Of a stretch of 64,000 bases of DNA, positions 17,464 to 24,426 are shown one piece after another. A program made the position numbers and the translations under genes. Position 1 is the stretch's first letter. Each line of letters starts with the position of its first letter. This stretch comes from Rhodospirillaceae bacterium (GTDB lineage: Bacteria > Pseudomonadota > Alphaproteobacteria > Rhodospirillales > Casp-alpha2): contig JAERTE010000141.1 in NCBI GenBank assembly GCA_016845145.1, forward strand, positions 1-64,000. The letters run 5' to 3'. The notes beneath the pieces are model-generated. The model was not told the origin of the DNA. It saw only the letters and a program-made list of their open reading frames with translations, and did no database searches.

Positions 17464-18684
17464 ATGGAAATCTTGAACGCCATCCTGGCTTTTACACTGA
17501 GCATGGTTGTCTTCTCGGCGCTCGTCACGGTGCTTGTTGAGCTGATCCAACGTGGACCGATCGGACGAGGGAAGGGCCTGCAGGCGATGATAGGCAGATA
17601 CTTCGACGATGCGATGAGGGGAAAACTTCGCCTCGGTATTATCGCGAATTGCGCGCCGGGGATGGCTTGGTCGGATGAGGATCTGCGCCGGGATTTCTTG
17701 GAAACTGTCACCAAAGACAGCGGCGGAAGCACACCGTCCAGTTCGACCTTGCCCGGTATGGTGGCGAGGTTCTTCGGTTTCAACACCGTCAAACGGCTAA
17801 CCGTTGGCGAGTTTATCCGGCGTCTTGCGCACACGCAAATTGGTCTGGCCATCTCGCGCTGCGAGGACGGTAACGCAGATAGCTCATCGCTTGAGGCCGT
17901 GATTCACAACTTGGCACACAAATTCGTAGCCCATGGTGAACGGGCCCGCCGAAAGTTCTCCGAACGGGCGCGGATATTTGCCGTCATAGTGGCAATATTG
18001 CTTGCTGGTTGGGCGAATATAGATGTGTTTCGGTTGTTCCAGCAGCTTCAGAGCGACCCAGCAGTCGTTCAATCTCTGCTCGCGGCCGAGTCCAAGCTGC
18101 TGATCGAAAACAAGGTCGTCCAGGACGCACTGAAGAAGGAACTGAACAGTGTTGCCGAAGCCAAAACCGAGGACGATGCGGCGGAGGCTCGGGCGCGTTT
18201 GGCGGCAGTACGCTCTTCGGTCAAGGACCTTGCGAGCACCGGCCTGGCGATTGGCGACGGGTATTACCCGTATTGCACCACCGGGAGCCAAGACCCCGTC
18301 TGCAAACACCTAATCGATAACGCCCAGAAGAAGTGCAAGGCCTCTGCCGCCGGCGATGCCAAGAAGCTGGAGCAGTGTGCCGGGCAGACAGTGAGTGTTT
18401 GGCACGCCTTGAAGAGCTCGAAAGATGACGCGCGGCGATGGTTCTTTCTCATCGTCCTGAGTGGCCTGCTTATCGGGATCGGTGGTCCCTTCTGGTTCAA
18501 TTTTTACACCGGCTTGTCGCGGTGGGTCGGCGTGTTGCGCGGCGCCAAGGCGAAGGATGCCAGCCAACAACTGCTGAGCACCGAAAACGCCCAATCAACC
18601 GACGATACGGTCGTCGATGCCGCGGCGCTGACCGCTTCCTTCAGGAAGGAGATCGCGGCTCGCGGCGCGCTGAATGCAACTTAG
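17464..18684 (+). CDS. Inner-membrane protein of unknown function, first gene of envelope cassette
   Basis: A 406-residue protein. I chose the ATG at 17464 because GGGAGGT lies seven bases upstream and because it opens directly into a membrane segment (ILNAILAFTLSMVVFSALVT). A cytosolic loop of ~150 residues follows, then a second segment (FAVIVAILLAGWANIDVF), a helical region of about 140 residues with four cysteines (CTTGSQDPVC, CKASAAGDAKKLEQC), probably periplasmic, and a third segment (WFFLIVLSGLLIGIGGPFWF). The C-terminal tail is short and polar. I do not recognise the family. It starts a plus-strand operon with two lipoproteins and a small helical protein (gaps of 29, 3 and 14 bp), suggesting a membrane complex. 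Confidence 0.8.
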   Translation: MEILNAILAFTLSMVVFSALVTVLVELIQRGPIGRGKGLQAMIGRYFDDAMRGKLRLGIIANCAPGMAWSDEDLRRDFLETVTKDSGGSTPSSSTLPGMVARFFGFNTVKRLTVGEFIRRLAHTQIGLAISRCEDGNADSSSLEAVIHNLAHKFVAHGERARRKFSERARIFAVIVAILLAGWANIDVFRLFQQLQSDPAVVQSLLAAESKLLIENKVVQDALKKELNSVAEAKTEDDAAEARARLAAVRSSVKDLASTGLAIGDGYYPYCTTGSQDPVCKHLIDNAQKKCKASAAGDAKKLEQCAGQTVSVWHALKSSKDDARRWFFLIVLSGLLIGIGGPFWFNFYTGLSRWVGVLRGAKAKDASQQLLSTENAQSTDDTVVDAAALTASFRKEIAARGALNAT

Positions 18685-18713
18685 TCAATCAAAGAAGAAG
18701 AGAGGGATAGGAC

Positions 18714-20126
18714 ATGACAAATCATTTAAACAGGAAGGGCCTCGGGCGAACGGCGAGAGCTTGTGCGTTGGCCTTGACACTGGCGTCGCTAACGACTGGG
18801 TGCGGCAACCTCTACTTCCATAGCAATGGCTTGGAAGCTCTAGCAACCGACGCGCGCACCGAAGTGCTGGGCGTGTTTGCCAAGAATCTCGCCGGGGATT
18901 TGTCGAATACGATCAAAGGCAACCAGACTTTTGCGCTCGATCTCTTGCGTTCACTTGGTGGTGTAAGCAACGACACCCAGGTCGACACGCTGTTAGCCAA
19001 GAGCTGGAGTGAGCTCGAGGCCGAGCCGAAGACTGCGCTCCATTCTGCGGAGACTGCCAGGGGTTGGGCCTCTGCTCGGATCGGCAAAATCGATACGCAG
19101 TTGATTGCCGCTGTGCAAGAACATGCAGGTGCACGTGAGAAGGTCAAGAACGCCCAAGTCGCATTGCACGAAGCGAATTGTTTTCGGCAACGGTATATCG
19201 AGACCCAGAACCTTCTTGCCGATGTTGTCGCGATCAACTTCAAGCAAGATCGACCAGATATAGCCTCAGCCTTTGAGGCTGTGTTCGATAAGCCGGCGCC
19301 AAGTTTCGAGGGCAAGAGTAAATCCAGTTGCAAAGGCAAAGATACAGTCGCGAAGCTGCTCGGATTGGACGCTTGGCAGGGCTATGCCAAGGCCGTCGCG
19401 ACCGGTGATGAGGTTGCGCTGGTTGAGCGCATTTTCAAACATACCGCGAAACTGCAGCAACTCGGAAAGAAAGCCAAGCTGGCGTTGAGAGACCCGGGGT
19501 TGTCCTCGACTATCCTGGGCCTCGGCTACGATCTGGCGCGGACTTCCGAAATGCACCTCCAGGCCGAGGTCGATTATTGGAAAAAGCTCAAAGCCATTCG
19601 ACAAAGCCAGAAAGAATTCACTACAGAATGGCATGCGCAGATTCAAGAGTCCGTCTCGTCCAAAGGTATCAGCTTGAAAGATTTGCAGGCGAAAGATCCG
19701 ATCAAAAATCATATCTCACGAGCGCTAACTGTCGGCGATTCCCTCCGCGAACTCGGTCTGACTTACTACGGTGCCAAGGAAGCTTACTTCAAGGCCACAC
19801 CCGCGAATAGAGTAGCGGCACAGGAGGCCAGTACACGGGCACGAGAAATGCTGCGTTACGCGTTGATTGCTGTTGCCCGAGTCCATGAGAACATCAACGT
19901 TCGAGCCAGTAAGGCACTAGAGTTCGAGACGCTCGCGACGGCCATGCTGAATACACGAGCAGCGGTTCGTGCGGAGGCAGCGCTCAAGGGGCGTGAGGCG
20001 TTAATCAGCCGCGGTCTCGAGGGACTGGTCGCTTTTCACAAAAACGGCATCACTGCCGACGACATGCGCAGCCTGATCGGGCTTGCTCAGTTCGCCGGAT
20101 TGCTCGCCATTGCAGAAGGATCCTAA
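18714..20126 (+). CDS. Lipoprotein with long helical/coiled-coil body, unknown function
   Basis: A 470-residue protein with a signal peptide and lipobox (LASLTTGC, Cys30), so it is anchored to the inner or outer membrane. The mature protein is almost entirely helical and charged, with coiled-coil-like stretches (ARIGKIDTQLIAAVQEHAGA; HTAKLQQLGKKAKLALRDPG) and a C-terminal hydrophobic helix (MRSLIGLAQFAGLLAIAEGS). I do not recognise the family. It is followed after 3 bp by a second, shorter lipoprotein, and the two probably work together with the membrane protein upstream. Confidence 0.75.
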   Translation: MTNHLNRKGLGRTARACALALTLASLTTGCGNLYFHSNGLEALATDARTEVLGVFAKNLAGDLSNTIKGNQTFALDLLRSLGGVSNDTQVDTLLAKSWSELEAEPKTALHSAETARGWASARIGKIDTQLIAAVQEHAGAREKVKNAQVALHEANCFRQRYIETQNLLADVVAINFKQDRPDIASAFEAVFDKPAPSFEGKSKSSCKGKDTVAKLLGLDAWQGYAKAVATGDEVALVERIFKHTAKLQQLGKKAKLALRDPGLSSTILGLGYDLARTSEMHLQAEVDYWKKLKAIRQSQKEFTTEWHAQIQESVSSKGISLKDLQAKDPIKNHISRALTVGDSLRELGLTYYGAKEAYFKATPANRVAAQEASTRAREMLRYALIAVARVHENINVRASKALEFETLATAMLNTRAAVRAEAALKGREALISRGLEGLVAFHKNGITADDMRSLIGLAQFAGLLAIAEGS

Positions 20127-20129
20127 CTC

Positions 20130-20678
20130 ATGAAAACGCGAAAAAACCTAAAACTGGTGTGTTCCGTCGCGACGGCTGCCCTCGTCTCCGCCTGCGCGGC
20201 CCATGAGAAGGCCAGTGACATGAGTGGTGAGCTCCTGGCCCAGACCATGGCTTACGAAAACCAATTGGTAAATCTTGCCCGCGTAACCGAGAAGCAGGGT
20301 GAACGCGTGGGCGGCTGGGCGAAACAGCAATTCGGTTTCGTGCAGAGCGACCGCCTGGACGCGATTGTTCTTAGTCGTGCTGAGGATACGATCGAATCGA
20401 TTTCGCGGTCGGGTTTTTCGGGTAAGCAAATACGGTCGTTCATTGCCGATTACAGCGACCGCGTTCGCGAAAACGCGGTGCTCGTAAACACCAAGCTCAA
20501 CGAAATCGATGCGCGATCGCGAAAGACGGTGAGCGCCCTGAAGAAAGAGATCAAACCCCTGGCAAGCGTGCGCGCCAAGCTGGAGAAACTTCAGCAAGGG
20601 CTGTCCTTTTCCGATCAGGTCACGGCGCTTCGGCCGATCTTAGAGCTGATCAAAAAGACCCGGAAATCAAATAACTAA
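20130..20678 (+). CDS. Second helical lipoprotein of the envelope cassette
   Basis: A 182-residue protein with a lipobox (AALVSAC, Cys22). The mature part is helical with heptad-like stretches (LNEIDARSRKTVSALKKEIK). Its start lies 3 bp after the preceding stop, with AAGGA upstream, so translation is probably coupled. Family not recognised. Size and helix content suggest a binding partner of the larger lipoprotein. Confidence 0.72.
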   Translation: MKTRKNLKLVCSVATAALVSACAAHEKASDMSGELLAQTMAYENQLVNLARVTEKQGERVGGWAKQQFGFVQSDRLDAIVLSRAEDTIESISRSGFSGKQIRSFIADYSDRVRENAVLVNTKLNEIDARSRKTVSALKKEIKPLASVRAKLEKLQQGLSFSDQVTALRPILELIKKTRKSNN

Positions 20679-20692
20679 GGAGGTACATAGCC

Positions 20693-21073
20693 ATGAATAA
20701 CGACAAAGTAATCGAGGCCCTGGAAATCGCCGTTCAAAACCTGAAGGTCGTGATCAACGAGTTGGAAGACATGAAGCGAAATGTCGGCGGCCCCGTCGAG
20801 GAGCGGGCGACAAAGATCCAGAAGATCATCTCGCTTCGAAGCCGCCTCACCATGAAGGTCGGGCATCTTGAACTGCAGCTCATTGATCGCCAGACCGCGC
20901 GGGATCTCAATGATGCAGTAACGCCACTTTCGCCAGAAGAGCGCGCGCGGATAGAAGCCGGCCTTGAGGCCTTGAGCGCCAGCGTTGCCGCTGTCGGTGA
21001 CTTTACCGCCGCGATCAATCTTGCCAGTGAGATTGCGAATGCTGCCGACGGAATTATCGGTGCCGCGGCGTGA
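20693..21073 (+). CDS. Small soluble helical protein closing the envelope cassette
   Basis: A 126-residue protein without signal peptide, preceded by a perfect AAGGAGG ribosome binding site. It looks like a helical bundle: an N-terminal charged helix (VIEALEIAVQNLKVVINELE), a central helix, then VTPLSPEERARIEAGLEALS and an alanine-rich hydrophobic last helix (INLASEIANAADGIIGAAA). The strong site suggests higher expression than the lipoproteins. It faintly resembles the 132-residue protein at 10857-11255. A terminator follows, ending the transcription unit. Confidence 0.7.
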   Translation: MNNDKVIEALEIAVQNLKVVINELEDMKRNVGGPVEERATKIQKIISLRSRLTMKVGHLELQLIDRQTARDLNDAVTPLSPEERARIEAGLEALSASVAAVGDFTAAINLASEIANAADGIIGAAA

Positions 21074-22505: not shown

Positions 22506-22559
22506 GAAAGAGACGACCTAGACGAGACTTAAACTTGTAAATACAGGAGGAACTGAACG

Positions 22560-23108
22560 ATGCGTGTATATTCCGTGGACGATGTGAAGCTTTCCGTCAT
22601 GAAATCCAATCCACCGAAACTGTCGATCATTGCCTTAGGCATGGTGACGTCTTCAGGATGGCGAAACCCGCAACTTGTGCCGCTTGAGGAGCAATTGTCC
22701 GCTGACGGTATTCTCGATGTCGAGTTTGTCGCCGATCCGCCGGACGGCATTTCCCTTCCGGTTCTGACATTTATTTCCGGTGATGTGATCTGGGAGGACG
22801 ATGTTGATCGGATCATCGGTGTCCGGGTTGTCGCCCGTACGAACGAGAAGACGGAATTAATGGTCTCTGACCCTGGTGTGACGACAATGGCCATCGGTGA
22901 AGAATCCAATCCGCCGTTGACTACATTAGCCGTTGGTGAAGAGGGTGACGCCCTGACGGTCCCTGATTTCGAGAAATGGCCGATCGGCGAAACACGGGCG
23001 TGGGCTGATATTCACAAGCCGCTCATGAAGGAAAAGCAGCCATTCGGTGAAGACTTCGACAGAATCGAAGCATTGGTCCGGCCCCGAAATCCTTTTGGCG
23101 GGAGGTGA
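22560..23108 (+). CDS. Putative graspetide precursor with TTxxxGEE core repeats
   Basis: A 182-residue protein with a strong ribosome binding site (AGGAGG, seven bases before the ATG). Residues 1-100 look like a folded beta-rich domain (ALGMVTSSGWRNPQLVPLEE) rather than a short leader. It is followed by two repeats, TTMAIGEE (108-115) and TTLAVGEE (121-128), and a degenerate third (WPIGETRAW, 140-148). Plesiocin-group graspetides are known to have TTxxxxEE core repeats in which an ATP-grasp enzyme joins Thr side chains to Glu side chains as esters. The protein contains no cysteine, consistent with this chemistry. An ATP-grasp gene follows immediately (stop overlaps its ribosome binding site). 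A ~50-residue tail after the second repeat is unusual. Motif and neighbour agree, so I am fairly sure of the class. Confidence 0.82.
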   Translation: MRVYSVDDVKLSVMKSNPPKLSIIALGMVTSSGWRNPQLVPLEEQLSADGILDVEFVADPPDGISLPVLTFISGDVIWEDDVDRIIGVRVVARTNEKTELMVSDPGVTTMAIGEESNPPLTTLAVGEEGDALTVPDFEKWPIGETRAWADIHKPLMKEKQPFGEDFDRIEALVRPRNPFGGR

Positions 23109-23113
23109 GTGCC

Positions 23114-24145
23114 GTGTATACGACCGACCTTTTGATTGTCGGCGGGGTAAAGGACCCGAATATCGGTATCCTGGCGTCGGCTGCGCATCATATGGGGTGC
23201 GCAGCCGTGACCCTGGTTTTCGGCGATGACGTCGAACCGGCAGTATCGTGGGATCTGGAAGATGAACAACTGCGTGTCGACGGTCGTTTGATCGTTCCGC
23301 GTGCGGCATTTGTTCGCCAGGACGTATTTTCATTCGGTGATTCGATGCAACCGGAGCGACTAGACAAGGGGCTAGCGTGGCATGCCGCGATCACTGGCGC
23401 ATGTTTTTCGAATGATCGAACCAATGTGTTTAACCGGGCGATGGACTGGCGCACCGCAAGCAAGCCGATCATGCTCAAGCTCGCTCGTTCGCATGGTTTG
23501 CCTGTCCCCGAAACCATCGTTTCAAATTGCGAGGAGGCCATTACGGAGTGGCATGGGCAATCACCGCGGATTGCCAAGCCGGTTGCCGGCGGCGCGTACT
23601 GTTGCGAACTCGAAGAGCTATTGTCGGATACGCTTTGGGAAGGCGGCGTTGCGCCAGCTCCGGCGATCATACAAGACAGGTTGGATTACCCAGAATATCG
23701 CGTCTATATCATCGGCGATCGGCTCCTTGGTTTCGAGGTGATTTCGGAGGTTGTCGATTACCGGATCGATCGGCAATGCCGGATCAAGCCTATACCGATT
23801 GAGGATCTTCCGGTCACGCTACGCGATGGGTTGTCGTCGCTCGCGCGTGAAGTCGGTATTGATTTCGGCGCGGCTGATTTCAAGACCCGCTCTGAAACCG
23901 GGGAAATCTGTTTTCTCGAGCTGAACAATCAACCCATGTTCGCGGCGCATGACCTCGCCAGTGACGGCGAACTTTCAAGACTGATTGTTGAGACGCTCGC
24001 GATCACTGGACCGGAGAGAGCGGCGGATCGCCGTGCTATGGGCAATCCCATACATGAGCATGAGAAAAGGCAGGCTCTAAATCCTAACGTCGCGGATCAC
24101 GGCTGGGGAACAATGGGGTGTCAGACTTCAGCGCCCATGGGATAG
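23114..24145 (+). CDS. RimK/MvdD-like ATP-grasp ligase (putative graspetide synthetase)
   Basis: A 343-residue ATP-grasp enzyme. Motifs typical of RimK-like and microviridin-type ligases are visible: KPIMLKLARSHGLPVPETIV (lid entry), RIAKPVAGGAY (ATP-binding Lys), IIQDRLDYPEYRVYIIGDRL and the metal-binding DFGAADFKTRSE ... CFLELNNQPMF (Glu/Asn pair). Graspetide synthetases activate acidic side chains as acyl phosphates and join them to Ser/Thr/Lys side chains. A GTG at 23105 is possible, but the GTG at 23114 has GGAGG eight bases upstream, within the end of the precursor gene, so I chose it. The C-terminal ~40 residues (after GPERAADRR) are polar and probably disordered. No acetyltransferase or dedicated transporter follows. 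Confidence 0.85.
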   Translation: MYTTDLLIVGGVKDPNIGILASAAHHMGCAAVTLVFGDDVEPAVSWDLEDEQLRVDGRLIVPRAAFVRQDVFSFGDSMQPERLDKGLAWHAAITGACFSNDRTNVFNRAMDWRTASKPIMLKLARSHGLPVPETIVSNCEEAITEWHGQSPRIAKPVAGGAYCCELEELLSDTLWEGGVAPAPAIIQDRLDYPEYRVYIIGDRLLGFEVISEVVDYRIDRQCRIKPIPIEDLPVTLRDGLSSLAREVGIDFGAADFKTRSETGEICFLELNNQPMFAAHDLASDGELSRLIVETLAITGPERAADRRAMGNPIHEHEKRQALNPNVADHGWGTMGCQTSAPMG

Positions 24146-24350: not shown

Positions 24351-24426
24351 TGGCGCCCCCTAGGGGACTCGAACCCCTGTTTCCGCCGTGAGAGGGCGGC
24401 GTCCTAGGCCACTAGACGAAGGGGGC
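24351..24426 (-). tRNA. tRNA-Glu(CTC) with encoded CCA
   Basis: Read on the minus strand, the 76-nt gene has acceptor stem GCCCCCT/AGGGGGC, D-arm (TCGTCTAGTGGCCTAGGA), anticodon stem CCGCC/GGCGG with loop CTCTCAC (anticodon CTC), T-arm AGGGG TTCGAGT CCCCT, discriminator G and an encoded CCA. Its 3' end points toward the natural-product-like region, a position often used as attachment site by integrating elements. Confidence 0.95.

Follow-up and report, generated by a model that had tools for sequence, protein, structure and literature searches.

A probable two-gene plesiocin-type graspetide system with a folded N-terminal domain and a conserved C-terminal tail in an alphaproteobacterium

The window analyzed in this work is a stretch of 64,000 nucleotides from contig JAERTE010000141.1 of a Rhodospirillaceae bacterium. 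On its plus strand, an ORF of 182 aa with an ATG start (22560–23108), which was identified as a graspetide precursor gene from the reading frame, its homologues and its selection pattern, is preceded by the Shine-Dalgarno sequence AGGAGG (22545–22550, plus strand), 9 nt upstream. The initial annotation had described a protein free of cysteine carrying the motifs TTMAIGEE and TTLAVGEE, and both were found in the 182-aa product as core repeat 1 at residues 108–115 (22881–22904, plus strand) and core repeat 2 at residues 121–128 (22920–22943, plus strand), supported by sequence and alignment; the number of Cys residues was zero. When the residues of the precursor were shuffled 200,000 times, 44 of the shuffled sequences contained TTxxxGEE at least once and none contained it twice, ruling out that the two repeats are chance matches. 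Comparison with the nearest homologue, in locus L033, gave a pS of 0.64 and a pN of 0.17, indicating a coding gene under purifying selection. Neither the precursor nor its N-terminal domain matched any family in Pfam and NCBIfam searches. An ATP-grasp gene had been said to begin at the stop codon of the precursor, and the 346-aa ORF with a GTG start at 23105–24145 (plus strand) indeed overlaps that stop. A tRNA-Glu (CTC) gene lies just 3′ of it on the minus strand (24351–24426).

The 346-aa product was assigned as a PsnB-like ATP-grasp graspetide synthetase by NCBIfam, PDB profile, AlphaFold and Foldseek results. It matched the NCBIfam model TIGR04187 (ATP-grasp ribosomal peptide maturase) at 8e-16, which is below the family cut-off, and had no match in Pfam. 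The first match in a PDB sequence search was 7drm, named PsnB in the Foldseek listing; PsnB is the synthetase of plesiocin. A PDB profile search using 28 relatives ranked PsnB (3.5e-35) before CdnC (3.7e-19), PruB (9.5e-18), MdnC (1.2e-16) and RimK (4e-4), with no glutathione synthetase listed among the matches. The AlphaFold model had a mean pLDDT of 87, with low confidence at residues 326–346, and a Foldseek search with this model placed PsnB chains at all of ranks 1–14 (PsnB, 6.8e-19). A grouping with RimK or glutathione synthetase, which had been named as the outcome that would overturn the annotation, was ruled out by the profile search and these Foldseek ranks. The enzyme is thus an ATP-grasp synthetase of the MdnC/PsnB kind, as expected of graspetides, rather than of the RimK or GshB kind. 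Closeness to PsnB is a trait of the plesiocin group, whose published boundary lies at SSN score 70; for this enzyme it was established among solved structures. K158, D258, E272 and N274 were invariant in an alignment of 42 synthetases.

The GTDB genome collection was scanned with the synthetase alignment, which yielded 43 loci. A TTxxxGEE-type precursor was located upstream of the synthetase in 30 of the 34 nearest relatives, with leaders ranging from the ~100-residue domain to Nif11, short GG-type, Lys/Arg-rich and lipoprotein-like forms; the leaders of the Paenibacillus relatives were short, and a Nif11-type precursor with seven repeats adjoined a related synthetase (41% over the best segment). 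In the tree, the synthetases of precursors with the N-terminal domain formed a single clade (support 98/95) of 14 alphaproteobacterial members, including that of the window, hosted by Kiloniellaceae, Magnetovibrio, and rhizobial and rhodobacteral genomes. All 14 precursors begin with the same ~100-aa beta-sandwich. Strict TTxxxGEE was present in 1–11 copies in 11 of the 13 others, L039 and L040 carried only degenerate repeats (TTLALGEQ, KTMAIGED), and one alphaproteobacterial precursor with the same domain had about 15 repeats. The alignment confirmed that homologous precursors retain both the TT and the EE residue pairs. Accordingly, the window holds both the adjacent precursor with conserved core Thr/Ser and Glu/Asp residues that characterizes graspetides and, in two exact copies, the TTxxxxEE hairpin repeats of the plesiocin group. 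Among 385 sampled alphaproteobacterial genomes, a synthetase match with E < 1e-50 was obtained in two, that of the window and one other, making the system a rare one.

Several further loci were recorded during this survey. The precursors L047 5445–5981 and L110 944–1396 combine TTxxxGEE repeats with an N-terminal hydrophobic stretch, a lipobox-like Cys (LSGCS and ASGCA) and a core at the end of the protein, and are possible surface-anchored graspetides. No adjoining precursor was found for the Neomegalonema synthetases in L049, L050, L054 and L057. A Croceicoccus plasmid protein (L128 1879–2403) with repeated Thr-/Asp-rich motifs (such as TKVRQESADDD and TKTFNNVEGDDDD) adjoins an MvdC/MvdD-like gene and is probably a further multi-repeat graspetide precursor.

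Residues 1–101 of the window precursor (22560–22862, plus strand) constitute the N-terminal beta-sandwich domain, delimited by AlphaFold and homologues. Seven strands were predicted with a block pLDDT of about 78–91, followed by disorder. The initial annotation had suspected that a folded-looking N-terminal part marks a separate subgroup in an alphaproteobacterium, and both the 98/95 clade and this confident prediction bear it out. A Foldseek search of the domain against the PDB returned no confident match (best E 0.3), and the best VIA-align hit was to the NigD-like 4pqx with a Z of 7.1. Since this value is too low to indicate more than a common arrangement, the fold is called only an Ig-like beta-sandwich. 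Relatives from the same beta-sandwich sequence family also occur alone: proteins of 112 aa in L028 and 216 aa in L030, further copies in L078 and L079, and, more distantly, Rhodobacteraceae lipoproteins. Unlike the window precursor, these stand-alone relatives are without core repeats and PFG tail, both of which were absent from all four complete homologues examined (L028, L030, L078 and L079). Because the same domain exists without core or synthetase, we regard it as a fused module rather than an ordinary leader. The L030 copy lies in a Mesorhizobium plasmid cluster (1563–10010) together with a multicopper oxidase, a tyrosinase, a cytochrome P460, an M4 peptidase and an emfourin inhibitor.

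The core is followed by a conserved tail of residues 138–182 (22971–23105, plus strand; EKWPIGET...KQPFGEDF...RNPFGGR). The segment WPIGETRAW, previously taken for a decayed third repeat, turned out in the alignment to be an element of this tail that is conserved among relatives. Eight members have the GE[TS] element after the core, namely that of the window and those of L033, L034, L035, L037, L042, L043 and L044, with ET/EK variants at this position in L036, L038, L039 and L040. E164 is invariant among the N-domain precursors, as are P178, F179, G180 and R182 in the tail alignment, and PFG stands inside the last seven residues of 14/14 N-domain precursors. When 385 non-overlapping ORFs from the same loci were inspected, only precursors had P[FW]G among their final nine residues.

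On the basis of this PFG conservation, the C-terminal RNPFGGR (residues 176–182; 23085–23105, plus strand) is proposed as a synthetase recognition motif, that is, a follower. The tetrapeptide RPFG is a key recognition sequence in the leader of ThfA, this leader still functions when relocated to the C-terminus, and a C-terminal follower has so far been known from engineering only (PMC13003496). Three tgmA precursors carry N-terminal PWGLRRMAPY and APWGxTRMAPY, with PWGxxR in the leader. Fuscimiditide ThfA/ThfB and the actinobacterial tgmA/tgmB systems therefore resemble the window in conserving a P-aromatic-G motif outside the core (PMC13003496). While the motif of ThfA and tgmA is situated in the N-terminal leader, that of the window stands at the C-terminus, like the motif in engineered constructs whose leader was turned into a follower, and no such motif occurs in the folded N-terminus of the window precursor. 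The likeness to RPFG and PWGxxR, a match of three residues, is why PFGxR is put forward as a natural follower docking the synthetase, a possibility that we hold tentatively from sequence comparison. The tail has a second PFG at residues 161–163, so that docking might occur at either of the two. The L045 precursor ends in NPFGSF, has no N-terminal domain, and belongs to a synthetase that branches outside the clade, so the motif may track the synthetase and not the domain; this decoupling is seen in one sequence only, and within the clade both always occur together, which leaves room for a role of the tail in secretion or stability.

Conversely, the folded N-terminal domain itself might dock the synthetase, with the tail serving stability or export only, an arrangement that we consider possible, though somewhat less likely. 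Every member of the synthetase clade has the domain, and other RiPP classes include folded leaders (PMC13003496). In addition, the domains of the precursors differ from the stand-alone copies at S16, E43, L46, S47, R84 and R93, and these precursor-specific residues could equally mean synthetase docking. However, the domain also occurs without any synthetase, the tail is no less invariant, PFG is likewise present at the end of the L045 precursor, which does not have the domain, and the characterized graspetide leaders are docked through short motifs (PMC13003496, PMC8939145). A separate observation concerns the short GG-leader TTxxxGEE precursors of Rhizobium, Paracoccus, Halomonas and Aureimonas, which carry L[DE][AI]xxH near the C-terminus in 9/9 cases (L048 5711–5908, L052 5722–5919, L055, L059–L063 and L066); this motif is perhaps another follower.

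The precursor–synthetase pair closes a run of seven genes, a tyrosinase among them, an arrangement present in the window and L033 only; since no operon is more closely related than that of L033, the run may be shared by descent. The tyrosinase (PF00264; 21229–22461, plus strand) lies just upstream of the precursor and was identified by Pfam, with a counterpart at the same place in L033 only. The four plus-strand ORFs upstream of it (17467–21073) have no family match, two of them have lipoprotein-like signals, and their order is the same in L033: a 405-aa ORF (17467–18684), kept in L033 and L034, and, kept in L033 according to the flank comparison, putative lipoproteins of 470 aa (18714–20126) and 182 aa (20130–20678) and a 126-aa ORF (20693–21073). 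A tyrosinase directly upstream of the pair, as seen in the window and, at 68% identity, in L033, would suit a tailoring enzyme in a multi-enzyme RiPP cluster. This is unlikely, however, as the flanks retrieved for the other N-domain loci have no such gene and Tyr is absent from both core and tail; as a general partner, the tyrosinase was thus discarded. No tailoring, protease or transport gene common to the clade was found in the fetched flanks, sharing being limited to small subsets. An NHLM-type peptidase-transporter is a common, though not strictly required, companion of the plesiocin group, but such frequent co-occurrence was not seen for this pair. A whole-genome search for Peptidase_C39 gave no match in 9 of 13 genomes with the pair, and the genome of the window had one weak match on a different contig (C17). 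A C39 leader peptidase was consequently rejected as a partner, being not found in most host genomes.

Taken together, the PsnB-like enzyme and the TT and EE residues retained in homologous precursors support the reading of the initial annotation, and the locus very probably encodes a two-gene plesiocin-type graspetide system. It is highly unlikely that the enzyme instead makes amide linkages or bonds of another kind, or attaches amino acids by RimK-like ligation, without Thr-Glu stapling, since the chemical diversity of the ATP-grasp superfamily and the weak RimK profile match are outweighed by the much greater nearness of PsnB in both profile and Foldseek searches, by TTxxxxEE repeats without Lys at donor positions, and by the recurrence of the same repeat across several leader types.

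In the proposed plesiocin-type mechanism, the PsnB-like enzyme would use ATP to activate Glu side chains within every TTxxxGEE repeat and would link them to the hydroxyl groups of Thr. Each repeat would thereby gain two nested omega-esters, which makes four in total and a mass change of −72 Da. The repeats would be held between the folded ~100-residue beta-sandwich, a fused module that would serve as a carrier or for targeting, and the ~45-residue conserved tail ending in PFGxR, which would be the docking segment of the synthetase and a natural follower. It is possible, and no firmer than that, that docking on the C-terminal PFGxR frees the N-terminus for an attached folded domain, in which case a stapled protein would be made rather than a peptide that is released. 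The stapled product probably stays attached to the N-terminal domain. By analogy, such a protein-peptide conjugate might inhibit serine proteases through the hydrophobic loops MAI and LAV. According to PMC8939145, every graspetide characterized up to its publication is a protease inhibitor, and serine-protease inhibition is therefore the first function to consider. We infer the ester formation, the follower role, the lack of processing and the inhibitory function from these comparisons.

Among known systems, plesiocin (PsnA2-PsnB, graspetide group 2) shares with the window the TTxxxxEE hairpin repeats and a single synthetase gene. In contrast to plesiocin, the window adds a beta-sandwich before the core and a 45-residue conserved tail after it, and most hosts of the window-type pair are without a Peptidase_C39 gene. 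With its folded module and its recognition-like tail at the C-terminus, the system is a distinct variant of the plesiocin-like graspetides. Graspetide groups 34, 35 and 41 (Carter et al. 2026, PMC13097080) have long or large precursors and are likened here by description only; groups 34 and 35 have repeat precursors, and group 35 clusters consist of synthetase and precursor only (PMC13097080). A literature search of limited coverage found neither a TTxxxxEE alphaproteobacterial family nor a tyrosinase-linked graspetide. The subgroup may already be present, unnamed, in published graspetide datasets such as that of PMC13097080, which has 21,584 members.

Efforts are under way to engineer graspetide synthetases for stapling proteins, and in 2026 the relocation of the leader to the C-terminus was put forward as an engineered layout. 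If the reading given here is true, the clade would supply ready follower-directed enzymes together with natural fusions of repeats to a folded domain, and would allow the site at which synthetases read their substrates to be tested directly. The GG-leader relatives with L[DE][AI]xxH would then be a second case of the follower layout.
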